This document shows, in pieces, positions 10,957 through 35,549 of a DNA stretch of 43,791 bases (position 1 is the stretch's first letter; each line of letters starts with the position of its first letter). The position numbers were made by a program, and so were the translations under genes. The stretch covers positions 1-43,791 of the forward strand of contig JACIWL010000011.1 in the NCBI GenBank assembly GCA_014360995.1, read 5' to 3'. The DNA is from Candidatus Bipolaricaulota bacterium (lineage in GTDB: Bacteria; Bipolaricaulota; Bipolaricaulia; Bipolaricaulales; Bipolaricaulaceae). The notes beneath the pieces were generated by a model. The model saw nothing but the letters and a program-made list of their open reading frames with translations, did no database searches and was not told the origin of the DNA.

Positions 10957-12357
10957 ATGGACGCAGTCATTGGGCTTGAGATCCACGTGCAGCTCCTCAC
11001 GCGCACCAAGCTCTTTTGCCCCTGCCGCGCCGATTACTTCGCCGCTCCCCCCAACACCCTGACCTGTCCCGTATGCCTTGGCCTCCCCGGCGCCCTTCCC
11101 GTCCTGAACAAGCGTGCGGTGGAACTGGCCCTGCGAGTGGCCTTGGCCCTGGGTGCGCAGGTGCAAGAGGTCTCCCATTTCGACCGCAAAAATTACTTCT
11201 ACCCCGACCTCCCCAAAGGCTATCAAATCACCCAGCGGGAGATCCCCTTGGCCACAGGTGGAACCCTTTCCTTTAAGGTCGAGGGCCAGAAAAAAACCGT
11301 GCGCATCCGGGAAATGCACCTGGAAGAGGACGCAGGAAAACTAATCCACACCGAATCCAAAACCCTGATCGATTTCAATCGCTGCGGTGTTCCGCTGGTG
11401 GAGATCGTCACCGAGCCCGATCTTCGCTCCCCGCGGGAGGCCCGGGAATTCCTGCGGACCCTGCGCACCCTCCTCCGCCACCTTGGGGTGTCCAACGCCG
11501 ACATGGAAAAAGGCGAGCTTCGCTGTGACGCAAACGTCTCCCTCTCCGTGGACGGAGGAATGGGAACGAAAACGGAGATCAAAAACCTCAACAGTTTTCG
11601 GGCTGTGGAAAAAGCCCTTTCCGCGGCAATTGAATACCAGTGGGAAAGGCTTTCCCGAGGGGAGCGGGTGGAGCAGGTGACCTTTGGCTGGGACGACAGC
11701 CGCGACGAACTCGTAGTCCAGCGGGTAAAGGAAGAGGCCCACGACTACCGGTACTTTCCCGATCCCGATCTTGTGCCGCTTGTGATTTCCCGGGAATGGC
11801 TAGAGGAAGTGCGGGCGCGGATGCCCGAGCTCCCCTGGGAGCGGGTGGCCAGGTGGGCCCGGGAGTACGGCGTTCCCGAAAGGGAGGCGGAGGCCCTCCT
11901 TGCTGAGCCCGCCCGCGCCGCTTTCTTTGAGGAGGTGGCCAAAGCCATTCCCAATCCCAAAGCGGCCGTGGGATGGGTCCTCTCCGAGCTTTTGCCTTAC
12001 TGGACCGACGAAGAGCCGCCCCTTTCCCCGGCGGACCTTGCCCTTCTCATCCGCAAAGTGGAGGAAGGGACCCTTCCCCGGAACAAAGCCAAAGAGATCC
12101 TGGAACAAGTGGCCAAAAAGGAGGGCACGGTACCAGAGCTTGTCCGTGCCGCGGAGGGCTCGGTTTTACGCGATGAAGAGGGGCTGAGAGCTCTGGCCGC
12201 GGAAGTCCTCGCCGCCCACCCCCAAGCCGTGGCCGATTATCGCCAGGGAAAAATACAAGCCCTCGGCTTCTTGGTGGGCCAGGCTATGAAAAAAGCTCAA
12301 GGCCGCGCCGATCCCAAACGCTTAGCCCAGATCCTTCAAGAGCTCCTCAGGGAATAA
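10957..12357 (+). CDS. gatB: Aspartyl/glutamyl-tRNA(Asn/Gln) amidotransferase subunit B
   Basis: A 466-residue GatB. It begins AVIGLEIHVQLLT, carries the zinc-type cysteines of CPCRADYF and CPVCLGLPG, and has NYFYPDLPKGYQITQ, FNRCGVPLVEIVTEPDL, GELRCDANVS, KTEIKNLNSFRAVEKAL and RYFPDPDLVPL, with the helical and YqeY-like tail. With GatA and GatC (not in the window) it converts misacylated Glu-tRNA(Gln) or Asp-tRNA(Asn), implying a non-discriminating GluRS and/or AspRS. It is monocistronic and divergent from suf. Its 3' end overlaps the convergent nuclease-fold gene by 11 bases. Confidence 0.97.
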   Translation: MDAVIGLEIHVQLLTRTKLFCPCRADYFAAPPNTLTCPVCLGLPGALPVLNKRAVELALRVALALGAQVQEVSHFDRKNYFYPDLPKGYQITQREIPLATGGTLSFKVEGQKKTVRIREMHLEEDAGKLIHTESKTLIDFNRCGVPLVEIVTEPDLRSPREAREFLRTLRTLLRHLGVSNADMEKGELRCDANVSLSVDGGMGTKTEIKNLNSFRAVEKALSAAIEYQWERLSRGERVEQVTFGWDDSRDELVVQRVKEEAHDYRYFPDPDLVPLVISREWLEEVRARMPELPWERVARWAREYGVPEREAEALLAEPARAAFFEEVAKAIPNPKAAVGWVLSELLPYWTDEEPPLSPADLALLIRKVEEGTLPRNKAKEILEQVAKKEGTVPELVRAAEGSVLRDEEGLRALAAEVLAAHPQAVADYRQGKIQALGFLVGQAMKKAQGRADPKRLAQILQELLRE

Positions 12358-13126
12358 CCAAGTTCGATGGATCGGAAAGCTGGATCTCCGGAACGCCCTG
12401 GTAGAGGCGGATTTCCCCCAGCGCTCGCACGGTCCGGCCAAGGAGGTTGTTCCAAAAGCGCGCGCCAAAAGCGGCCTCGAATTTGCCCACGTGGCGGGCG
12501 GGGATGAACAGGGTGAACCGGCCCGGGTCGGGGTAGGGCTTGCCAAGGTTAAGGAAGACATCGCCGCTCCGGCTCGTGCCCACGCTGGCCACAGGGCCCT
12601 CCACACAGGCCATCTCGCCCACATGCCTTCCGGCCTCGCTCCAGGAGTAAACGGCAGGGCAGACTAGTGTCGGTTTGGTCGCAGGAACGCGGTCTAAATA
12701 AGAGAAAACGTGGTCGTAGCGGCTTGCCCCCGCCACAGGACCAAACCCCACAAGGTCAGTAGAGACGAGGATAGCGTTGACAAGGAGCTTTCCAGTTTTA
12801 TCCAAGAAAACGTAGGCCAGAAGACGGCCAGCTTCATCGCGGATTTTTTCATCTAGCTCAAGAAAAACTCTTCTTCCCTCCACAAGAGCGCCGTTTAAGG
12901 CTCGGGCAAGTTCAGCTTCTTCGGGTCGGCCTGGAAGTTGAACCCCGATATAGCGCACGCGCTCGCTTGCGCCCGGCCTAAGTCCAACTCCTGGGGGAAC
13001 GTCCTCGACGCGCACAAGGATCGTCGCCCCGTCCAGGACCTCCAAAACTTGGGCGGTGATCTCCGGCGCCCCAAAGACGGCAAAGGGCACAAGAATAGCC
13101 AACATGACCAAACCTATGTGCCTCAT
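12347..13126 (-). CDS. Secreted SNase-fold protein with a degenerate active site
   Basis: A 259-residue protein with a signal peptide (hydrophobic 4-19, ending FGAP) and a staphylococcal-nuclease-like domain. Where the active family has DGDT this has DGAT (D32, A34). The arginine is kept (R58), but the catalytic aspartate and glutamate positions read Q63 and G66. It should therefore be inactive as a nuclease and may be a binding protein. The second half (about 165-259) looks like an additional OB-like domain. The start follows AAGGAGG by 4 bases. It lies 44 bases after the thiY-like gene and may be co-transcribed. Compare the intact paralogue at 19675-20490, whose residues align at the same numbers. 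Confidence 0.72.
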   Translation of the reverse strand: MRHIGLVMLAILVPFAVFGAPEITAQVLEVLDGATILVRVEDVPPGVGLRPGASERVRYIGVQLPGRPEEAELARALNGALVEGRRVFLELDEKIRDEAGRLLAYVFLDKTGKLLVNAILVSTDLVGFGPVAGASRYDHVFSYLDRVPATKPTLVCPAVYSWSEAGRHVGEMACVEGPVASVGTSRSGDVFLNLGKPYPDPGRFTLFIPARHVGKFEAAFGARFWNNLLGRTVRALGEIRLYQGVPEIQLSDPSNLVIP

Positions 13127-13170: not shown

Positions 13171-14103
13171 CTATGGCAGAGCCTCGACGGTGTAAAGGAC
13201 TTCCAAGGGAAAGGCCTTTCCGATCATCCCCGTCCGCAAGAGGAATTCTTGCATCGCTTCCCAACGCTTTCGGTCGTCGTGTCTGACCCCTTTGGCGTAA
13301 AGGGGCAAGGTGACCTCAAAGCTTCGCCGGTTAAGCTCGTCGGAAAGTTCGGGGAAGACCTTTGTAAACACAGAAAAGCTCTCCGCAGGATGAGCCCGAA
13401 CATATTCGATCCCACGAGAGATGGCACGCAACACCGCCTGAACTTCCCAAAACCTTTGGGAAAGAAGGTCCGGATGGACCACGAAAAGGAGCTCATAAGT
13501 ATTGGGCACGCCGTAGTCTTCTTGAGGGAAGAAGACCGGGGTATAGCCCAAGAGCTCTACCGCCAAAAGCTCGTAATTGCGGAAGGCGCCAATGGCTGAG
13601 ACGGCCTGGCTTAAAAGGGCTGGAACTGTGCTCATCCCGGTATAGACGAGTTCGTACTCCCCGGGCTCCACGCCGACCGCTTTGAGCATCGTTTGCCAAA
13701 GGATCGGCTCCAAAGGTTCTAGAGAATAGCCGATGGTTCTTCCGCGGAGGTCGGAAAGCTTTTCAATCCCGTACTCCCGCAGGCTCAAAAGCCCGCCCAA
13801 CGCGCCGTCGATGAGGGCTCCCACGGCGATGAGGGGAAGGCCTTCGTCCCGGGCAATGAAAAAGTTCATCTGGGGGGTGAGCCCCATCTCCACCGCTTTG
13901 GTGGCCACAAGCTTCGCCGGCGCACTGGGATCGGAGGGCACGATGAACTTCACCTCGATCCCCTCTTCCCGGAAAAACCCCAACTCCTCCGCCACATAGA
14001 GAGGAACATGGTTCGGATTGGGATAGAAATCCAAAATTATGCTGAAGCTTTCGGCCCAACAAATAACGCCCACAAACAAGATGAGACCAAGCACTCGCCC
14101 CAT
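13171..14103 (-). CDS. ABC transporter substrate-binding protein, ThiY/NMT1 family
   Basis: A 310-residue exported binding protein: signal peptide (1-18, ending CWAES), then LDFYPNPNHVPLYVAEELGFFREEGIEV, the hallmark of the NMT1/THI5-like family. GYSLEPLEPILW and YTGMSTVPALLSQ follow. Such proteins bind thiamine pyrimidine precursors (HMP or formylaminopyrimidine); riboflavin and sulfonate relatives exist. It is last in a tdk-ATPase-permease-binding protein operon, 12 bases after the permease. No TPP riboswitch was seen upstream of the operon, so the thiamine link rests on family resemblance only. Confidence 0.82.
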   Translation of the reverse strand: MGRVLGLILFVGVICWAESFSIILDFYPNPNHVPLYVAEELGFFREEGIEVKFIVPSDPSAPAKLVATKAVEMGLTPQMNFFIARDEGLPLIAVGALIDGALGGLLSLREYGIEKLSDLRGRTIGYSLEPLEPILWQTMLKAVGVEPGEYELVYTGMSTVPALLSQAVSAIGAFRNYELLAVELLGYTPVFFPQEDYGVPNTYELLFVVHPDLLSQRFWEVQAVLRAISRGIEYVRAHPAESFSVFTKVFPELSDELNRRSFEVTLPLYAKGVRHDDRKRWEAMQEFLLRTGMIGKAFPLEVLYTVEALP

Positions 14104-14115
14104 AGCGCAAATATT

Positions 14116-14859
14116 TTACCGGCGGCGGAGAAGAAGGCGTTCACACAGCCCCACCACCCAAAAAAGGCCCAATCCTAAAAGGGTGAGGACGAGGATGGCA
14201 GCAAACACCCGGTCCAGGCGCAAGCGGGCGTTGGCCTGGATCATGAGGTATCCCAAGCCGCGGCTTGCGCCAACCCACTCTCCTACCGTGGCTCCCACCA
14301 AGGCCAGGGTCGCCCCCACCCGAAGTCCGGAAAAAAGAAAAGGTAAAGCCGCCGGACCGCGCACCATAAAGAAAATGCGGCGCTCCGGCGTCCCTAGGGC
14401 CTGGAAGAACTCCACTAATTCCGGCCTAAGGGAGCGCAACCCGTCCAGGAAATTGACGGCCACCGGGAAAAACACGATCATCGCGGCCACGGCCACCTTG
14501 GGCCAAATCCCAAAACCAAACCAAAGGACAAAGAGAGGCGCTACAGCAAATACCGGGATCACTTGCGAACCCACCAAGAAAGGGGTTAGTGCCCGCCTAA
14601 GAGGGCGCACATAAAAGGTCAAAATCCCCACCGCTAGTCCTACCACAGCTCCCAAGCCTAGACCCAGACCTACCTCGGCCAAGGTTACCGAGGCGTGGTA
14701 AAAAAGGAGCGAAAAGTCCTGGCCAAAGGTAAGAAAAACACGACTTGGGGAAGGAAGTACATAAGGGGGAAGCCGGAAAAAGCGCACCACGGCTTCCCAA
14801 ACCCCGAGGAGAAACCCGACCACAGCCAACGCCCACAAAAATTCCGCTTTCCTTTTCAT
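14116..14859 (-). CDS. ABC transporter permease, ThiX/SsuC type
   Basis: A 247-residue integral membrane protein with about six helices. The cytoplasmic EAA loop (EFFQALGTPERRIFFMVRG, about 158-176) contacts the ATPase. The N-terminal RLPPYVLPSPSRVF motif is typical of the nitrate/taurine/thiamine-precursor permease group. The start overlaps the ATPase stop by 4 bases (14856-14859), and the gene precedes the binding protein by 12 bases. It forms the channel of the same transporter. Confidence 0.9.
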   Translation of the reverse strand: MKRKAEFLWALAVVGFLLGVWEAVVRFFRLPPYVLPSPSRVFLTFGQDFSLLFYHASVTLAEVGLGLGLGAVVGLAVGILTFYVRPLRRALTPFLVGSQVIPVFAVAPLFVLWFGFGIWPKVAVAAMIVFFPVAVNFLDGLRSLRPELVEFFQALGTPERRIFFMVRGPAALPFLFSGLRVGATLALVGATVGEWVGASRGLGYLMIQANARLRLDRVFAAILVLTLLGLGLFWVVGLCERLLLRRR

Positions 14860-15602
14860 AAGTTCTTCCTGGCCAAAGCCGCAAGGATAGAAGCTCGCAA
14901 TGCCTGAACGGAGGAAGAGGATTTTTCCCGGGGCCGGGTCATATTGAGCGGGAAGGTAGCGGCTACATGAGCCGGGCGCGGGGTAAGAACCACAACTCGG
15001 TCGGAAAGAATCACCGCTTCCTCCACGTCGTGGGTCACGAGGACCACCGTCTTCTTAAGCCTTTGCCATACGCCAAGAAGCCAGTCCTGAAGCTCGGCGC
15101 GGGTTAGGGCATCCAAAGCACCTAAAGGCTCATCCAAAAGAAGGAGATCACGCTTGGCGAAAAATGTGCGTAGAAGAGCAACTCTTTGGCGCATCCCCCC
15201 GGAAAGTTCATGGGGAAAGCTTTTTGCAAAGTCGGCCAGGCCAAAATCCTCAAGGAACTCGAGCGCTTCGCGTTTTGTCTTTTTGTCTACGCGGCCGTCG
15301 GCCTCCCGGGCCGCCAAAATGTTCCCGAGCGCGGTTCGCCAGGGAAGAAGGGATTCGCCCTGGGGCATGTAGGCCACCTGGCCCCGCGGCACTTCTCCGA
15401 ACACCAAAACTTTTCCAGATTGTGGCCGAAGGAGACCGGCGGAGACGCGCAGGAGCGTAGTTTTCCCGCACCCGGAGGGCCCAACTACGCTCACCCACTC
15501 CTCCTTTTCCACAAGAAGGGAAAGGCGGTCCAACACGGAAAGAAAGCCCTTAGGGGTGGGATAACCTGCGCAAACCTCGTGAAGTTCCAAAGCTCCGGTC
15601 AC
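14856..15602 (-). CDS. ABC transporter ATPase, ThiZ/SsuB type
   Basis: A 248-residue ATPase beginning with GTG (VTGALELHEV). It has Walker A GPSGCGKTT, Q-loop MPQGESLLPWRT, signature LSGGMRQRVALLRTF, Walker B LLLLDEPLGALD and the switch VTHDVEEAV. The GTG at 15602 overlaps the tdk stop as GTGA; a longer upstream reading overlaps tdk and has no homology, so it was rejected. It powers the ThiX/ThiY-like transporter. Direct coupling to thymidine kinase is unusual, and may be chance packing or a nucleoside/pyrimidine link. Confidence 0.9.
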   Translation of the reverse strand: MTGALELHEVCAGYPTPKGFLSVLDRLSLLVEKEEWVSVVGPSGCGKTTLLRVSAGLLRPQSGKVLVFGEVPRGQVAYMPQGESLLPWRTALGNILAAREADGRVDKKTKREALEFLEDFGLADFAKSFPHELSGGMRQRVALLRTFFAKRDLLLLDEPLGALDALTRAELQDWLLGVWQRLKKTVVLVTHDVEEAVILSDRVVVLTPRPAHVAATFPLNMTRPREKSSSSVQALRASILAALARKNL

Positions 15603-16159
15603 GGAGCAAGAAAATGGTCGCGGCAGCGGGGCTCGTAAGTCTCCAGCCCCCCGATGAGGACCTCCGGCCCCTCCGTCACGGGGACCCCGTTGCAAAGGCG
15701 CAGGGAGCGCGTGGCGGGGTTCCCACACACTGTGCAGACGGCGGTGAGTTTTAAGACCTCGTCCGCCAGGGCCAAAAGGAACGGCATAGGACCAAACGGC
15801 TCGCCGCGAAAATTCAGATCCAAACCAGCGACAATTACCCGCTTGCCTTGCCGGACTAAAAATTCGCAGAGCTCAGGAAATTCTGGGCCAAAAAAGTTGG
15901 CCTCGTCGAAGGCCAGAACATCTGCGGAAAGAAGCACCGCCGGGAAGGAAGCGGGGTTAACCGAGGTGGGGAGGACGTAACAGGGCCAGCTTCTTCCGTT
16001 GTGGGCCACCACGCGGTCGGGGTGATAGCGGGTATCGAGCTCGGGCTTGCAAAGCACCACGTTTTTCCGGGCGATGCGGGCCCGCTCCACCCGCCTGAGG
16101 AGTTCCTCCGTTTTCCCGGCAAACATCGGGCCAGTGATGACTTCCAGGCGCCCCTTCAT
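15599..16159 (-). CDS. tdk: Thymidine kinase (type II)
   Basis: A 186-residue type II thymidine kinase. The P-loop is GPMFAGKTEELLRR (about 10-23), followed by CKPELDTRY, the catalytic aspartate region VLAFDEANFF, the VAGLDLNFRGEPFG lasso entry, a CTVCG zinc half-site and a late cysteine (ETYEPRCRDH). It phosphorylates thymidine for salvage. It leads the operon with a leaderless promoter 9 bases before the ATG and runs into the thiZ-like gene by a GTGA overlap. Confidence 0.95.
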   Translation of the reverse strand: MKGRLEVITGPMFAGKTEELLRRVERARIARKNVVLCKPELDTRYHPDRVVAHNGRSWPCYVLPTSVNPASFPAVLLSADVLAFDEANFFGPEFPELCEFLVRQGKRVIVAGLDLNFRGEPFGPMPFLLALADEVLKLTAVCTVCGNPATRSLRLCNGVPVTEGPEVLIGGLETYEPRCRDHFLAP

Positions 16160-16168
16160 AGCTAAGGC

Positions 16169-16174
16169 ATTTTA
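16169..16174 (-). promoter_or_regulatory. -10 box of the leaderless tdk-thi operon promoter
   Basis: Minus-strand TAAAAT (16174-16169) lies 9 bases before the tdk ATG, with no ribosome site. No clear -35 is visible. The 215-base gap to the divergent transporter operon holds this and the next promoter; I see no riboswitch in it. Confidence 0.5.
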
Positions 16175-16332
16175 GCCCTCTCCACTCCCTTGGGACCACC
16201 CGGCATAATCTTCGCCGAGGCGTTGTCGGCGCACGTTTCGGGCTGACGGCCGGGCTCCTCCGCAGGGACCTCCGTTCTCCGCACTTCTGATCGTGAATCG
16301 CTGGAAGGGACAAGACTTAGGAAGGCCACTGG

Positions 16333-16360
16333 TTGTTTCTCAAGCGGGGTAAAGTAAACT
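16333..16360 (+). promoter_or_regulatory. Probable promoter of the sugar-type transporter/nuclease operon
   Basis: TTGTTT (16333-16338), a 16-base spacer and TAAACT (16355-16360) precede the TTG start at 16375 by 14 bases, leaving a very short leader with a weak GGTGAGAG. Confidence 0.45.
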
Positions 16361-16374
16361 TTTGGTGAGAGACC

Positions 16375-17223
16375 TTGGCGCGACGGCGATCTCCAGATTA
16401 CTGGGTACGGCGCGGCTCTTGGCTTGGTCTTGTGTATGTCCTTCTGCTTTTCACCTTGGTGATCACCGCTTTGCCCTTCTTCTGGATGGTTACCACCTCT
16501 CTTAAAGAGAAAACAGCGGTCATGCGCATGCCGCCCCAATGGATTCCCAATCCCGTGCGCTGGCAAAACTATATCGAAGCTTGGAACTCCGCGCCGTTTG
16601 GCCGCTACTTCTTTAACTCCTTTTTCATCGCCATCGCCACCACTGTGGGAGACGTGCTTACTAGCATTCCTGCAGGCTACGCCCTAGCCAAGATGGCCTT
16701 CTTTGGCCGGGGGCTCATTCTGGCCCTCCTCCTTGGAACCCTCATGATCCCCGGCCAAATGCTCCTCGTTCCCACCTTCATTCTTGTGAAGAACATTGGC
16801 TGGTACAACACCTACCAGGTGCTCATCATCCCCTGGACGGCGGGGGTTTTCGGAATGTTTCTTCTGCGCCAATTTTTCAAAACCGTTCCCGATGAACTTT
16901 GGGATTCCGCTCGCATCGATGGTTGCTCACGGCTGCGTTATATGTTCCAAATCGCCGTGCCCCTCGTGCGCCCAGGCATTGCCACCGTGGCCCTTCTCAA
17001 GTTTGTAGGTTCGTGGAATGCCTTTCTCTGGGTCATCGTCATGACCGACAAGGTGGAGCTGCGCACCGTGCCCGTGGGGCTCAGGTTCTTGCAGATGGAA
17101 ATGGGCGACTATCATCATCTCCTCATGGCCGCCGCTACCATGGCCATCGTTCCCATCCTCGTCCTCTTTGCTCTTGCCCAAAAGCAATTCATTCAGGGGA
17201 TCGCCCGCACCGGTCTCAAATAG
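16375..17223 (+). CDS. Carbohydrate-type ABC transporter permease (MalG/UgpE family)
   Basis: A 282-residue CUT1 permease with about six helices. PFFWMVTTSLK, NYIEAWNSAPFGRYFFNSFFIA, the LLVPTFILVKNIGWYNTYQVLIIPW segment and the EAA loop DELWDSARIDGCSRLRYMFQIAVP are typical of MalG/UgpE. It begins with a rare TTG at 16375 (GGTGAGAG just before), since no ATG or GTG is placed to keep the N-terminus. Here it comes first in the operon, ahead of the binding protein, which inverts the common order. No ATPase gene is nearby, so a shared MsmX/UgpC-type ATPase must come from elsewhere. Confidence 0.9.
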   Translation: MARRRSPDYWVRRGSWLGLVYVLLLFTLVITALPFFWMVTTSLKEKTAVMRMPPQWIPNPVRWQNYIEAWNSAPFGRYFFNSFFIAIATTVGDVLTSIPAGYALAKMAFFGRGLILALLLGTLMIPGQMLLVPTFILVKNIGWYNTYQVLIIPWTAGVFGMFLLRQFFKTVPDELWDSARIDGCSRLRYMFQIAVPLVRPGIATVALLKFVGSWNAFLWVIVMTDKVELRTVPVGLRFLQMEMGDYHHLLMAAATMAIVPILVLFALAQKQFIQGIARTGLK

Positions 17224-17236
17224 AAGGAGGTGGCGC

Positions 17237-18436
17237 ATGCGGAAGCGGCTTTTTGCGGTGCTGATTGTGGCCTTAGGCCTTTGGGCCCTGGGCCAGGAGG
17301 TGACCATCACCTTCTGGCATGCCATGGGACGAGCGCACGGCCCCTTCCTCGAAGAACTCGTGCAGAAATTCATGAAGGAGAACCCCGGTATCAAGGTAGA
17401 GCTTGTATACCAGGGTGGTTACGGAGCTCTCCAGCAAAAACTCGTGGCCGCAGTGGCTGCTGGGACTCCTCCCACTATCGCCCAACAGTACGAGAACTGG
17501 ACGGTCACCTGGCTTGACGCACTCGTTGACCTCGATCTTTTCCTCCCCGAGGAGCTCCTTGCCGACCTTCATCCTGCGTTCATGCAGTACTTCGAGGGCC
17601 GTCTTGTCACTGTGCCCTTCAACAAGTCTGTGATTGTTCTTGTGTACCGGCCAGATCTTGTACCCGAGCCCCCGCGCACCTGGGAGGAGTTCCTCGCCGT
17701 GGTGGAAAAGATCGGTAAAGACGAGGCAAAACAGCTTTACGCCACGGGCTTCCGACCCCCGAACCCCGAGATGTTTTTGACCTTCCTGGCCCAGGCCGGT
17801 GGAGCGATCCTCTCCGAGGACTGGACGCAGGTCACCATCAACAACGAGGCTGGCCTAGAGGCTGCGGAGTTTGTGGCGAAACTGGCACCATATGCCCTAG
17901 TGCAGAGCGGCTACATCAATGAAGCCATGGCCGCCGGAGCCAACATTGCTCTTTGGCTCGACACCTCCGCTGGCTGGCCTTACAACGTCTCCGCCGCTCA
18001 GGAGCGGGGCGTGCCCATCGCGGTGACAACCGTACCCTGCCATAAAACCTGCGACTCCATGATTCAGGGCACCAACCTCGCCATCTTCTCCATGAACCAG
18101 AGCCTCGAGCAGATCAAGGCAGCAGCACGCCTAATCGAATTCCTCTTGCGCGCGGATAACATCGTCTACTGGGCCAAGATGTCTGGATACCTGCCGGTGA
18201 CCATGAGCGCTATCGAGTCCGAGGAGTGGAAGGCGTACATGGAGGAGAGCCCCATCGCCAAGGCTTCCACAGAGCAGCTTCTCGCGGGAGCTTTCCAGCA
18301 GCTTTTGCATCCGCGCTACATGGACATCCGCAACGTCCTCATCACCTACTGGGAGCTCCTCCTCACTGGCGAAATTAGTCCCAAGGAGTTCGTGGACGGC
18401 TTGGCCGCTGAAATCGAGGCTATCATCAGGGAATAG
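17237..18436 (+). CDS. Extracellular solute-binding protein, UgpB/MalE-like (family 1)
   Basis: A 399-residue exported binding protein. The signal peptide is residues 1-19 (no lipobox cysteine; cleavage near ALGQE), followed by VTITFWHAMGRAHGPFLEELVQKF, YQGGYGALQQKLVAAVAAGTPP and NKSVIVLVYRPDLV. This pattern is closest to glycerol-3-phosphate binding UgpB and related sugar binders. The substrate cannot be fixed from sequence. The ATG at 17237 follows AAGGAGG (17224-17230), 13 bases after the permease stop. Its company of a secreted nuclease and phosphoesterase suggests a nucleic-acid breakdown product or phosphate ester. Confidence 0.88.
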   Translation: MRKRLFAVLIVALGLWALGQEVTITFWHAMGRAHGPFLEELVQKFMKENPGIKVELVYQGGYGALQQKLVAAVAAGTPPTIAQQYENWTVTWLDALVDLDLFLPEELLADLHPAFMQYFEGRLVTVPFNKSVIVLVYRPDLVPEPPRTWEEFLAVVEKIGKDEAKQLYATGFRPPNPEMFLTFLAQAGGAILSEDWTQVTINNEAGLEAAEFVAKLAPYALVQSGYINEAMAAGANIALWLDTSAGWPYNVSAAQERGVPIAVTTVPCHKTCDSMIQGTNLAIFSMNQSLEQIKAAARLIEFLLRADNIVYWAKMSGYLPVTMSAIESEEWKAYMEESPIAKASTEQLLAGAFQQLLHPRYMDIRNVLITYWELLLTGEISPKEFVDGLAAEIEAIIRE

Positions 18437-18448
18437 GAAGGAGGCGAG

Positions 18449-18480
18449 GGGGAGGGGTAATCCCTTCCCCTCAGCTTTTT
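18449..18480 (+). terminator. Intercistronic hairpin after the binding-protein gene
   Basis: GGGGAGGG (from 18449) can pair with CCCTTCCCC (18462-18470) with one bulged base around a GTAAT-type loop. CAG and five T residues follow (18472-18480). It sits between the binding protein and the second permease, where partial termination or 3' protection would raise binding-protein mRNA over permease mRNA. Confidence 0.5.
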
Positions 18481-18482
18481 CC

Positions 18483-19661
18483 ATGAGATTGAGAATTCCG
18501 GTGTCTTGGAAAAGCAAACGCTTCTGGGGCGAGACCCTGGAGGCCTATATTTATCTTCTTCCTACATTGGCCGTTTTGGGACTTTTCACCTTCTATCCCT
18601 TCGTGAACGCCTTCCGTTACAGCGCCTATGACATCGGGACCCGCACCGTTCCAGGGGAACCAGTTCTTGTTGTCACCGAAGGGGTGGACGATTGGATGGC
18701 ACTATTGCGTCGCGGACGCATCTCTGAGGAGCTTTCAGAATTTCTTCACAAAAAATTCTCTATAAATCCAGAGAAACTTTGGGTGCGCTTACGTCAGGCC
18801 GATCGTTGGGTGCTTAGGGAGGAGGAAGGGGGTCGGGAGTTCGTGGTGTTGAGGGAGAGTGAAACCCTTACAGTCCGCCCTGCGGTGACCCGCTGGGATC
18901 TCCAGCCTGTCGGGTGGAAGAACTTTGAGAAAGTCCTGAAAGACAGAGATTTTCACAAGGCTCTGCTCAACACCACCAAATACGTAGTGATAAGCGTTCC
19001 CGTCACCCTATTTTTGGCTTTGCTTTTGGCGACCTTGCTCAACCAGGGAGTCCGTAGCCGCGCCCTTTTCCGCACCGCCAACTTCCTCCCGTACATTACC
19101 CCTTGGGTGGCGGTGGCCATGGTTTTCAGGTGGATCTACAACCGGGACATAGGCCTTCTTAATTATCTTCTTTCTTCGTTTGCCAATCTTTTCGGAACGC
19201 AAGCCAGCCTTTTTGATTGGCTGAACGACGCGCGCCTAGCTTTGCCCGCCCTAATCATCATGCAGGTCTGGCGGTTCACAGGATACCAGGCCTTAATCCT
19301 CCTTGCAGGAATGCAGGGGATCGACCGGGAGTATTACGAGGCCGCCCGTGTGGACGGGGCAAATGCATTCCAGGCCTGGCGCAAGATTACCGTCCCCCTT
19401 CTCACCCCCCAGATTTTCTTCCTCCTGATCATCTCCCTTATCGGCTCCTTTAAGATCTTCGAGGAGGTGATGATCCTTTTTATGGGATCCGGTCCACAAA
19501 ATTCCGCATTGACCATCGTCTATTACATATTCCGGAAGGCCTTCGAATCCGGGCATTATGGGCCAGCCTCTGCCGCCTCCGTAATCCTTTTCGCCATCAT
19601 CTTCATCCTCTCCCTTTTCCAACTCACGGTGGTCCAGCGCCGTGTCCATTACGAGCGCTAG
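18483..19661 (+). CDS. Carbohydrate-type ABC transporter permease (MalF/UgpA family) with enlarged first outer loop
   Basis: A 392-residue permease; UgpA proteins are usually near 295. The core is normal: first helix (about 21-43, YIYLLPTLAVLGLFTFYPF), later helices, and the EAA loop REYYEAARVDGANAFQAWRKITVP. Between helix 1 and helix 2, residues of about 50-150 form a charged, soluble insertion (DDWMALLRRGRISEELSEF, QADRWVLREEEGGREFVVL) predicted on the outside. Its role is unknown; docking the binding protein or the secreted enzymes is a guess. The ATG at 18483 lies just past the hairpin and has no strong ribosome site. Confidence 0.88.
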   Translation: MRLRIPVSWKSKRFWGETLEAYIYLLPTLAVLGLFTFYPFVNAFRYSAYDIGTRTVPGEPVLVVTEGVDDWMALLRRGRISEELSEFLHKKFSINPEKLWVRLRQADRWVLREEEGGREFVVLRESETLTVRPAVTRWDLQPVGWKNFEKVLKDRDFHKALLNTTKYVVISVPVTLFLALLLATLLNQGVRSRALFRTANFLPYITPWVAVAMVFRWIYNRDIGLLNYLLSSFANLFGTQASLFDWLNDARLALPALIIMQVWRFTGYQALILLAGMQGIDREYYEAARVDGANAFQAWRKITVPLLTPQIFFLLIISLIGSFKIFEEVMILFMGSGPQNSALTIVYYIFRKAFESGHYGPASAASVILFAIIFILSLFQLTVVQRRVHYER

Positions 19662-19674
19662 GAGGTGAGCGGTC

Positions 19675-20490
19675 ATGCGCGCTTTTCTTTTAGCAACCAT
19701 TCTTGGGCTTTCGTTCCTAGTACTCCTGGCCCAGCCCCCAGAAGGAGCATTCCCCGCCCGCGTGACCCGCTGGGTGGACGGGGATACCTGCATGTTGCGC
19801 TTTACCGAAACTGTCCCCCCAAATCTTTTTAGGTACGAAACGATAAGGCTCTTGGGTGTTAACGCTCCCGAAGTAGGTGAGCCCTTCGCCGACGAGGCCA
19901 CCCAATTTTTCCGAAAACTCACCATGGGAAAACAGGTCTATGTGGAGCTGAACCCCTATGAGAGGCGGGACCTCCACAACCGCCTCCTTGCCTACCTCTG
20001 GGTGGAAGCGGAAGAAGGCTGGACTTTAGTTAATGAAGCCCTCCTTCGCGCCGGGCTGGCTCGCCTCCTTGTGTTTTATCCTGAGCGAGAAAAATACTAC
20101 TGCCGGTTTCTGCATGCTTTGACCCTGGCTCAGCTGGAGGGGCTTGGCCTTTGGGAATCGGCGGGAAATCCTCGGGAATTGTGGGAGATCGAGGCCGACC
20201 CTGTGCGTTACGTCACCCAGGCCGTTTCCGCGATTTTTGAAGTGTCCCGGGTTGGTTTGGAACGGCAAGGTTGGGCCCTCTGGGCCGCGGGCAGCCGCTA
20301 TGGCCTTCGGGCGGTGCTCGATCCTGGAGTCTGCCGCTCCTTTTGGAACCTGGAAGTTTTTGACCCCGCCGTTTTCATGGGGAAGAAGGTCCTGGTCACG
20401 GGCGAGCTTCTTTGGGATAGTTTGGGGGGCGGCCCGCGCATCGTGGTGCGCTTTCCCGAGCAGCTTAGGCTTTGGGAGGAAAACCCATGA
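19675..20490 (+). CDS. Secreted thermonuclease-family (SNase) nuclease
   Basis: A 271-residue protein with a signal peptide (about 1-19) and an SNase domain that keeps the catalytic set: D35 and D37 in VDGDT, R58 and E66 in IRLLGVNAPE (N63 replaces the usual aspartate), and an arginine in HNRLLAYLWVE. The family cleaves DNA and RNA with calcium. A C-terminal region (about 180-271) resembles that of the degenerate paralogue at 12347-13126, so the two share a two-domain plan. The ribosome site GGAGGTGAG precedes the start, 13 bases after the permease stop. The stop overlaps the next ATG by 4 bases. It probably digests extracellular nucleic acids. Confidence 0.83.
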   Translation: MRAFLLATILGLSFLVLLAQPPEGAFPARVTRWVDGDTCMLRFTETVPPNLFRYETIRLLGVNAPEVGEPFADEATQFFRKLTMGKQVYVELNPYERRDLHNRLLAYLWVEAEEGWTLVNEALLRAGLARLLVFYPEREKYYCRFLHALTLAQLEGLGLWESAGNPRELWEIEADPVRYVTQAVSAIFEVSRVGLERQGWALWAAGSRYGLRAVLDPGVCRSFWNLEVFDPAVFMGKKVLVTGELLWDSLGGGPRIVVRFPEQLRLWEENP

Positions 20491-21638
20491 AATACTTTCT
20501 TTTAAGCCTTGTGTGGGCGGTGGTTTCCTTAGGAAGCCCTTTGCTTTATGGCCCCTGGAGTGGGAATCCTGAACTTACGGCCATCACCATCTCCTGGGCC
20601 GCAAGCCCTGCCTCCCCAGTGCGCATTGAATACGCCCCTCTTTCGGAGTACTTGAGAACACAAACATTTTCTAATTCCGCCTTTTATGAACCTCAAAGCC
20701 CCTCGGAAAAAGAAATCGTGCACTTCCGCCTGACGGAGCTGGAACCATCTACTTGGTATGTTTACCGTTTCGCCTTCCCTGATGGGGAGCAGACAGGGCT
20801 TGGCATGTTTCGTACGGCGACGAGAAGTGGTGAGCCCGTGGTATTTGGGGTTATTTCCGACACCCAGTGGCAGTGGTCAGGTTTAAACCGCGTGGAACTC
20901 GTCGCCCAGGCTATGAGCCTTGATCCATGGCCTTTTTACTTCGTCCTGCATGCGGGAGATCTGGTGGAAACGCCTGTTCCTTCGCATTGGGAGTTCTTCT
21001 TTAATTCCATGGCCCCAATCCTGCGGTGGGCTCCCTTCCTGCCCGTTTTGGGGAACCATGAGCGCGATAGCCTCAGCTATTATCAGCATTTTTCCCTGCC
21101 TCCTGGAGGAGGAAAGCAAGGAAAACGTTGGTGGGCCATGCACTATGGGGACCTCGTAGTCGTGGGCTTGGATTCCAATGCCCGCTCTCCCCAGGATTAC
21201 CAGGACCAACTAGCCTTTGCCAAAGAACATTTTTCTGGTCCTGAACCCCATAAAATCGTGGTCTTTCACCACCCAGTGTTTTCCTCGGACGCTTCCTACG
21301 GGCCTGGGGCCGAGGGATTGCAGAAGCTTTGGCATCCAGTATTTTCGGAGCTTGGTGTGGATTTAGTATTTAACGGCCACGCCCACAACTACGAGCGAAT
21401 AGAGCGGGACGGAGTGGTCTATCTTGTGGTAGGCGGAGGCGGAGCCAACCCCTATCCCCTTGCCAAAGAGCGCGTGGAAGGCTCGGTGGTAGGGGTAGAG
21501 AACCGGCATTTCTACGTGGCTGTGCGGGCCGACTCTTCAGGGATTTTTGTCCGGGTCGTGGGCGTGGCGGAAGTCATCGCCGGCGAAGTAAACCCAAAAA
21601 TAAAGGTCCTAGACAGCTTCTTTCTGCCCACGAATTGA
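20487..21638 (+). CDS. Secreted purple acid phosphatase-like metallophosphoesterase
   Basis: A 383-residue exported enzyme: signal peptide (1-17), an N-terminal fibronectin III-like domain (about 25-115, ending TELEPSTWYVYRFAF), then a metallophosphoesterase domain. The five metal motifs are VISDTQ, HAGDLVE, GNHERDS, VFHHPVF and NGHAHNYER. The layout matches purple acid phosphatases, which remove phosphate from monoesters or pyrophosphates. It is ATGA-coupled to the secreted nuclease, so nucleotides released by the nuclease are a natural substrate. It ends 2 bases before the convergent tRNA-Pro. Confidence 0.88.
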   Translation: MKYFLLSLVWAVVSLGSPLLYGPWSGNPELTAITISWAASPASPVRIEYAPLSEYLRTQTFSNSAFYEPQSPSEKEIVHFRLTELEPSTWYVYRFAFPDGEQTGLGMFRTATRSGEPVVFGVISDTQWQWSGLNRVELVAQAMSLDPWPFYFVLHAGDLVETPVPSHWEFFFNSMAPILRWAPFLPVLGNHERDSLSYYQHFSLPPGGGKQGKRWWAMHYGDLVVVGLDSNARSPQDYQDQLAFAKEHFSGPEPHKIVVFHHPVFSSDASYGPGAEGLQKLWHPVFSELGVDLVFNGHAHNYERIERDGVVYLVVGGGGANPYPLAKERVEGSVVGVENRHFYVAVRADSSGIFVRVVGVAEVIAGEVNPKIKVLDSFFLPTN

Positions 21639-21640
21639 GC

Positions 21641-21717
21641 TGGTCGGAGCGACCGGATTTGAACCGGTGACCTCTGGCCCCCCATGCCAGCGCGCTGCCA
21701 GGCTGCGCTACGCTCCG
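21641..21717 (-). tRNA. tRNA-Pro(GGG), CCA encoded
   Basis: Minus strand. Acceptor CGGAGCG/CGCTCCG, discriminator A and encoded CCA; D stem GCGC/GCGC; anticodon stem CTGGC/GCCAG with loop ATGGGGG (anticodon GGG); T arm ACCGG-TTCAAAT-CCGGT. All stems pair. Its 3' CCA lies 2 bases from the stop of the convergent phosphoesterase. Confidence 0.96.
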
Positions 21718-35274: not shown

Positions 35275-35549
35275 GGGTCCGTGCAGGGTGGGGGGGTAGC
35301 GGTCCCCTGGTTCCAAAACCCGCTATACGTGGAGCCCATGGGCCCTCCGAGAGGCGGGGTGGCGGAAGCGGCCCGGGAGAGGCGGCGATGACGGCCGAGC
35401 CCCCTGCGACGCAGGCCGGTAAACCCCGCCAGGCCCGGAAGGGAGCAACGGTAAGCCGTAACCTGCGGGTGATAGGGGACCCCTTGGCCCGAGCCTACCG
35501 CCCGGGCGCGCCCGGAGGCCTTGGCCCCGACGGGGGTCCGCACGGACCC
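35275..35549 (+). ncRNA. ffs: Signal recognition particle RNA, large (Alu-containing) type
   Basis: Domain IV is unmistakable: the CCAGGCCCGGAAGGGAGCA core (GGAA tetraloop at 35437-35440, asymmetric loop AGCA at 35444-35447). The ends pair perfectly, GGGTCCGTGC (35275-35284) with GCACGGACCC (35540-35549), giving about 275 bases. The 5' part holds Alu-domain-like GGTAGCGGT (35295-35303) and CCCGCTATA (35319-35327), as in large SRP RNAs of Bacillus or Thermotoga. It guides ribosomes making membrane proteins together with Ffh. It abuts tRNA-Ser with no spacer and ends 5 bases before the convergent PqaA gene stop, leaving no room for a terminator outside that gene. Confidence 0.92.

Follow-up and report, generated by a model that had tools for sequence, protein, structure and literature searches.

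The DNA analysed here, a stretch of 43,791 nucleotides from a Candidatus Bipolaricaulota bacterium (contig JACIWL010000011.1 of assembly GCA_014360995.1; hereafter the window), raises the question of why a CUT1-type ATP-binding cassette (ABC) importer should be encoded together with a nuclease and a phosphatase-like enzyme, and what such an importer carries. Five successive genes on the forward strand encode a CUT1 permease, a substrate-binding protein (SBP), a second permease, and two enzymes predicted to be secreted, a staphylococcal nuclease-type nuclease (SNase) and a metallophosphoesterase; they are separated by 13, 46 and 13 bases and, at the last junction, overlap by 4 bases. An initial annotation, made from the sequence alone, described this arrangement, which Pfam matches and coordinates bear out to the base, and proposed that the operon scavenges extracellular nucleic acid, breaking it down to nucleotides, free phosphate and nucleosides or sugar phosphates, and takes up one of the products. 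The five genes probably form an operon for extracellular nucleic-acid digestion and import, whose importer would take nucleotides or dinucleotides. The scavenging role is retained here on the conservation of the two enzymes, their fusion, a linked thymidine kinase, the fold and ligand-site residues of the SBP, and a comEC-linked homologue; the cargo is amended.

Conservation of the gene set supplies the first part of the answer. Of 100 genomes of the phylum, 63 have an SBP match at an E value of 1e-40. Neighbour counts, in which phosphoesterases were called with a hidden Markov model, cover 60 of these, G036, G058 and G091 being set aside as distant homologues, and five of the 40 genomes of the window's family (G014, G017, G024, G031 and G036) contribute no locus to them. 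The gene 3' of MalF is visible in 55 genomes: it encodes SNase in 40 of them, 34 have a phosphoesterase next to or inside the operon, and 48 have one or the other. Within the window's family, SNase follows MalF in 33 of 34 such genomes and a phosphoesterase comes after it in 26 of 34, with the two enzymes fused in 8. Of the 14 genomes of a second family, 6 have SNase directly after MalF, 8 have a phosphoesterase upstream or downstream and 13 have at least one of the two enzymes; in four further families only 1 of 7 genomes has either. The five-gene set is far beyond chance because the SNase neighbour recurs so regularly in the window's family, and yet it is not fixed, since the phosphoesterase is absent from 8 of the 34 family loci. 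Twelve close relatives carry names: eleven go under Bipolaricaulota, Bipolaricaulis or Acetothermia, and the twelfth, L040, goes under Thermotoga and has the same gene order. In a tree of the nucleases, those of G004 and G012 cluster with the SNases of the second family, which suggests transfer between families. Plasmid matches occur in three records, at 27.5–29.4% identity.

Both enzymes carry domain matches well above the cut-offs and conserved active-site positions (Table 1). The model of the SNase matches known SNase structures over residues 23–161 (Z 21.0); the PDB matches span those residues only, and the C-terminal beta-rich domain lies outside them. Asp37, Arg58, Glu66 and Arg103, presumably the counterparts of the catalytic Asp21, Arg35, Glu43 and Arg87 of staphylococcal nuclease, are invariant or nearly so (alignment A2). 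The nuclease had been credited with its catalytic residues, which is correct for all except the position of Asp40, taken here to be a calcium-site residue in staphylococcal nuclease: the window has Asn there, which 11 of the 32 rows show, against 21 with Asp (counted by eye). The metal ligands of the phosphoesterase (D125, D158, N190, H191, H261, H298 and H300) are kept in 33–35 of 35 relatives, and these motifs agree with its description as purple acid phosphatase-like. The word "purple", however, is probably wrong, because Glu161, which follows a GDL motif and is Glu in 32 of the 35 relatives, replaces what is presumably the iron-binding Tyr of plant purple acid phosphatases. The Pur_ac_phosph_N domain scores 29.0 bits in the window, against a cut-off of 30, and 43.5 in the fusion protein of L051. 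That fusion of SNase and phosphoesterase is a single frame of about 640 residues in six family genomes and is cut by a contig end in two; it was checked by Pfam on one genome (L051), and the SNase tree gives it one origin (support 97/96).

The cargo is addressed most directly by the SBP. Its Pfam matches are SBP_bac_8/SBP_bac_1, and its closest PDB sequence match is 7c0f (E 7.5e-36). The predicted model (pLDDT 94) has as its top 16 PDB rows a single protein, at Z 43.8–44.8 over 367–370 residues with a root-mean-square deviation of 2.6–2.8; these entries are titled as the dinucleotide-binding protein of an ABC transporter, endogenously bound to uridylyl-3'-5'-phospho-guanosine (U3G). The next matches are a cyclic-maltosyl-maltose binder (Z 42.3), UgpB of M. 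tuberculosis (42.0) and UgpB of E. coli (39.8 and 38.7). The margin of the dinucleotide binder over 42.3 is only modest, and the test of individual residues weighs more. Eight residues mutated according to the PDB titles (Y56, F79, N81, S127, Y224, T240, Y246 and Q274) were taken as the ligand site. Their equivalents in the window SBP are Y62, Y85, N87, S131, Y226, T243, Y249 and Q277, so that seven of eight are identical and F79 is replaced by Tyr; E. coli UgpB matches at two of eight. Overall identity to the dinucleotide binder is 33.8% across 320 aligned residues, and the simple binomial chance of at least seven identities in eight at a rate of 0.32 is 0.002. The Tyr224 and Tyr246 positions are aromatic in 69/69 and 68/69 orthologous rows, which count some loci of one genome twice, and the lone exception is His. 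The seven-of-eight signature occurs in 27 of 36 loci with SNase versus 2 of 16 without it (Fisher p 4e-5, ignoring relatedness). These residues and the model point to an SBP that would bind dinucleotides or nucleotides.

The same protein bears on a Ugp-like importer of glycerophosphodiester or glycerol phosphate, for which the two enzymes would supply phosphate and nucleic acid would be only a phosphorus source. UgpB is the closest named NCBIfam SBP family, and a phosphate-contact Tyr and Ser, described in one study as common to U3G-, glycerophosphocholine- and glycerol-3-phosphate-binding proteins (PMC12718374), occupy positions common to the window SBP and UgpB-type proteins. The initial annotation had proposed to look for nucleoside or phosphate contacts in the pocket, and these phosphate-contact residues are kept. 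A glycerol-3-phosphate ABC transporter is also listed for one published Bipolaricaulota genome (PMC6092417). Such an importer is nonetheless unlikely. The curated cut-offs are missed widely, with 85.4 bits against 411 for UgpB, 107 against 335 for UgpA and 144 against 297 for UgpE, and the MalF-like permease falls below the NCBIfam equivalog cut-offs for both UgpA and MalF. The two-Trp clamp that holds glycerol in UgpB (PMC12718374; title of PDB 6x84) is replaced in the window SBP, where sequence alignment gives Tyr for W169 and Gly for W172. Moreover, at the Tyr224 and Tyr246 positions, aromatic in all orthologous rows but the one with His, E. coli UgpB has Glu and Asn, and a Ugp-like cargo leaves the Bacillota linkage described below unexplained. 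Membership among glycerol-3-phosphate importers was rejected on the cut-off and clamp tests.

In a second phylum, homologues of the importer stand next to a DNA-uptake gene. A search of 398 Bacillota genomes (the phylum of a Paenibacillus solani record) returned 21 with an SBP match at an E value of 1e-60, and 20 of them, all except G377, were examined at one locus each; genes were identified by Pfam and NCBIfam on representatives and by BLAST for the rest. The SBP gene lies directly 3' of comEC and is followed by a gene for a CehA/McbA-type metallohydrolase in 16 of the 20 loci, and MalF, MalG, ComEA and HolA are also present wherever the contig extends far enough. The 15 comEC-linked SBPs recovered are 48–96% identical pairwise, form seven clusters at 85%, and share five or six of the eight pocket residues with the dinucleotide binder. 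The metallohydrolase has a PHP-type HxHT motif in 15/15 and, judged by eye, a signal-like N-terminus in most, and the HxHxDH motif of the ComEC nuclease domain is kept in 16/16. According to one source, the C-terminal domain of ComEC has nuclease activity and is proposed to degrade the nontransforming strand (PMC8579336). The comEC link is the most surprising result of this analysis and calls for independent checking. A broader proposal, held tentatively and with slightly more doubt than confidence, is that these importers are a distinct CUT1 branch that carries fragments of nucleic acid, either dinucleotides or short oligonucleotides, as its physiological cargo. In Bipolaricaulota this branch would form a self-contained digest-and-import operon; in a Bacillota lineage it would have become part of the competence operon and would salvage pieces of the strand degraded outside the membrane by the ComEC nuclease domain. 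A search of 398 Pseudomonadota genomes (the phylum of a Rhodobacteraceae record) at 1e-60, run without a positive control, returned no SBP homologues.

An AP_endonuc_2-type TIM-barrel gene is a neighbour of this kind of SBP gene in both phyla. It follows the SBP gene in one Bacillota locus (L186:8441-9250) and lies between SBP and MalF in a Bipolaricaulota genome of another family (L131:8591-9400); at the latter position, L130, L132 and L133 each carry a similarly sized gene.

A second part of the locus, the divergent arm of thymidine kinase, ABC importer and SNase-like genes, was overlooked by the initial annotation. The upstream gene is visible in 33 genomes of the family, of which 21 have thymidine kinase as the immediate neighbour and 24 have it somewhere in the locus; for the second family the latter count is 8 of 15. 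The kinase gene lies downstream of the phosphoesterase on the same strand in two family genomes, and in L134 a single strand carries MalG-SBP-MalF-phosphoesterase-ATPase-permease-NMT1-thymidine kinase. Simple open-reading-frame callers miss some genes: tblastn finds an uncounted thymidine kinase in L041, which lies in the same contig stretch as L080 (genome G019). ThyX was found in 30 of 40 family genomes and ThyA in 0 of 40; neither was found in 7 of the 17 high-quality genomes, each of which has thymidine kinase at the locus, although a gene missing from an incomplete assembly is no proof of loss. Thymidine auxotrophy as the whole explanation was ruled out and could hold for some species at most, because ThyX is so widely present. 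In G020, ThyX runs over two frames (G020:C11:468395-468932), possibly a decaying gene or a sequencing frameshift.

Several observations weigh against an operon for nucleic-acid digestion and import. Neither enzyme is present at 7 of the 55 phylum loci, and the SBPs of these seven loci still match one to six of the eight pocket residues. The U3G in the PDB entries came from the expression host, so that what this protein carries naturally is itself unproven. The Asn at the Asp40 position may lower SNase activity. Nucleoside salvage does not depend on the importer, because every one of the 40 family genomes has Bmp-type nucleoside SBPs, and the thymidine kinase linkage may reflect another pathway, because the NMT1-type importer of the divergent arm resembles thiamine-pyrimidine transporters; the nearest PDB match of its binding protein, 3ix1, is a formyl-aminopyrimidine-binding protein. 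Among the Bacillota, 4 of 20 loci (L186, L200, L204 and L205) lack the comEC linkage, and in L186 an alpha-amylase gene precedes the homologous operon by two genes. Finally, an operon of a GH57 protein and a CUT1 importer adjoins the locus in six family genomes.

The last of these points, and the general role of the CUT1 family in sugar import, favour an ordinary oligosaccharide importer that stands beside nuclease and phosphatase genes by happenstance. This is highly improbable given the regularity of the enzyme neighbours in the family and across the phylum. The initial annotation had held that consistent linkage to glycoside hydrolases, or a pocket specific for oligosaccharides, would speak against scavenging; orthologous loci show no glycoside hydrolase partners within the operon, the GH57 operon being separate, and the pocket differs at most sites from those of the neighbouring GH57-linked, sugar-type SBPs. 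The GH57 operon is equipped with its own SBP (25–28% identical) and permeases. A sugar importer is disfavoured by the structural matches of the SBP, its pocket residues and the enzyme neighbours. The GH57/glucodextranase-like protein itself has 952–961 residues and adjoins the operon in L036, L038, L050, L051, L056 and L074, and its operon brings a CUT1 SBP, a MalF of 512–516 residues and, where the stretch reaches, a MalG.

The phosphoesterase in the operon, the thymidine kinase at most family loci and the seven high-quality genomes in which no thymidylate synthase was found would fit an importer of nucleosides released by nuclease and phosphatase, feeding the kinase directly. That reading is quite improbable: nucleoside-type Bmp proteins are present throughout the family, the SBP keeps its phosphate-contact residues, and the phosphoesterase is missing from some loci. 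The importer as sole nucleoside route was dropped on the same Bmp evidence. Because of these Bmp proteins, the cargo is likely to be phosphorylated, a nucleotide or dinucleotide, and the nucleosides or sugar phosphates of the initial annotation are the less likely choice.

An operon for nucleic-acid digestion and import could work in five steps, whose order, exact cargo and metabolic direction are proposed. Staphylococcal nuclease yields 3'-phosphorylated mono- and short oligonucleotides, and the SNase, if secreted and active, would cut DNA or RNA into such products. The metallophosphoesterase, likewise putatively secreted, would then trim phosphates. The SBP would capture nucleotides or dinucleotides and hand them to the MalF/MalG pair, a MalK-type ATPase whose gene lies elsewhere would power the import, and the pieces would be salvaged inside the cell, where the linked thymidine kinase would return thymidine to dTMP.

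The features of the locus are given in Table 1. Two MalF/MalG-type permeases, both with a BPD_transp_1 domain, and a MalE/UgpB-type SBP are the composition of a CUT1 importer. The operon has no MalK-type ATPase gene; one OB_MalK protein is encoded in the window's own assembly (G000; 1.29 Mb, 86% complete) and would presumably serve the importer. The SBP reading frame is listed from 17168, with an ATG start at 17237. The 46-base gap between SBP and MalF folds at −34.6 kcal/mol (z −4.8), and the hairpin there has z below −3 in 48 of 50 loci and folds below −20 kcal/mol in 50 of 50; z falls below −3 in 0 of 54 MalG-SBP gaps and 0 of 41 MalF-SNase gaps. A hairpin in such a place, between the genes for an SBP and a permease, is generally regarded as favouring expression of the SBP. 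A simple scan found no sigma-70-type promoter in the divergent intergenic region (16160-16374). Just past the phosphoesterase gene, a tRNA-Pro gene lies on the opposite strand (21641-21717).

Table 1. Coordinates of the operon and its divergent arm in the window
Feature	Positions	Strand	Basis
Second SNase-related protein, catalytic residues lost, conserved C-terminal domain	12347..13126	-	alignment A3; no Pfam match
NMT1-type binding protein of second importer	13171..14103	-	PF09084 195.9 bits; nearest PDB 3ix1, E 1.5e-32
Permease of second importer	14116..14859	-	PF00528 110.1 bits
ABC ATPase of second, NMT1/ThiY-type importer	14856..15602	-	PF00005 99.8 bits; start as called
Thymidine kinase, divergent from operon	15599..16159	-	PF00265 152.3 bits
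Divergent intergenic region, thymidine kinase to operon	16160..16374		gene coordinates
CUT1 permease, MalG/UgpE-like	16375..17223	+	PF00528 68.8 bits; UgpE equivalog 143.9 bits, under cut-off 297; start uncertain, TTG here
Periplasmic SBP, putative U3G (dinucleotide)-binding type	17237..18436	+	PDB 7c0f best match, model, ligand-site residues
Strong intercistronic hairpin, then T-run, between SBP and MalF genes	18446..18472	+	folding; recurrence across loci
CUT1 permease, MalF/UgpA-like, insertion before core	18483..19661	+	PF00528 73.1 bits over residues 177-386
Predicted secreted SNase-type nuclease with C-terminal beta-rich domain	19675..20490	+	PF00565 67.5 bits (cut-off 21); model
Predicted secreted metallophosphoesterase, purple-acid-phosphatase-like architecture	20487..21638	+	PF00149 (Metallophos) 61.1 bits (cut-off 21.5); metal-ligand motifs

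At the far end of the divergent arm, the second SNase-like protein has lost the active-site aspartates and glutamate and retains the C-terminal domain. Its catalytic residues are lost in several genera, its C-terminal domain is highly conserved, and the motifs are intact in L069, L083 and L085. A 614-residue relative of this protein's C-terminal part is encoded between thymidine kinase and MalG in L051 (L051:12758-14602). Control of the divergent arm by a thiamine pyrophosphate or other riboswitch was rejected, as no Rfam riboswitch was found in six sources, only tRNAs and a large signal recognition particle (SRP) RNA. In the window, a large bacterial SRP RNA lies at 35279-35545, directly after a tRNA-Ser gene.

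No paper on the operon was found in the open PMC literature. Should it digest and import nucleic acid, a physiological role would be assigned to the dinucleotide-binding CUT1 branch, whose natural cargo is so far unproven, and a likely glycerol-phosphate or sugar annotation would be corrected in many genomes. The gene set would also suggest that Bipolaricaulota feed on nucleic acids, and it would link DNA uptake in Bacillota with recovery of the degraded strand.

A comparison with known systems shows what is shared and what is particular to the window. The U3G-binding protein of Thermus thermophilus (PDB 7c0f series; Chandravanshi 2021, as cited in PMC12718374) is the best sequence and structure match of the window SBP and differs from it in the ligand site only at Phe79. 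It is compared here as a protein only, whereas the window SBP sits among SNase, phosphoesterase and thymidine kinase. UgpABCE belongs, like the window importer, to the CUT1 family and has the phosphate-contact Tyr and Ser positions in common with it, but the window proteins fall short of its curated cut-offs and lack the Trp clamp, and the E. coli operon includes ugpC and ugpQ where that of the window has no ATPase gene. Degraders of extracellular DNA in marine sediment resemble the proposed system in their secreted nucleases and in the release and uptake of phosphate; the accessible part of their description names nucleotidases and a phosphate ABC transporter, no CUT1 importer, and neither Bipolaricaulota nor Acetothermia (PMC8289736). 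The link to the comE competence operon (ComEA-ComEC) is seen only in the Bacillota, in which a close homologue of the importer stands as an insertion between comEC and holA; the locus of the window itself has no recognised com gene.

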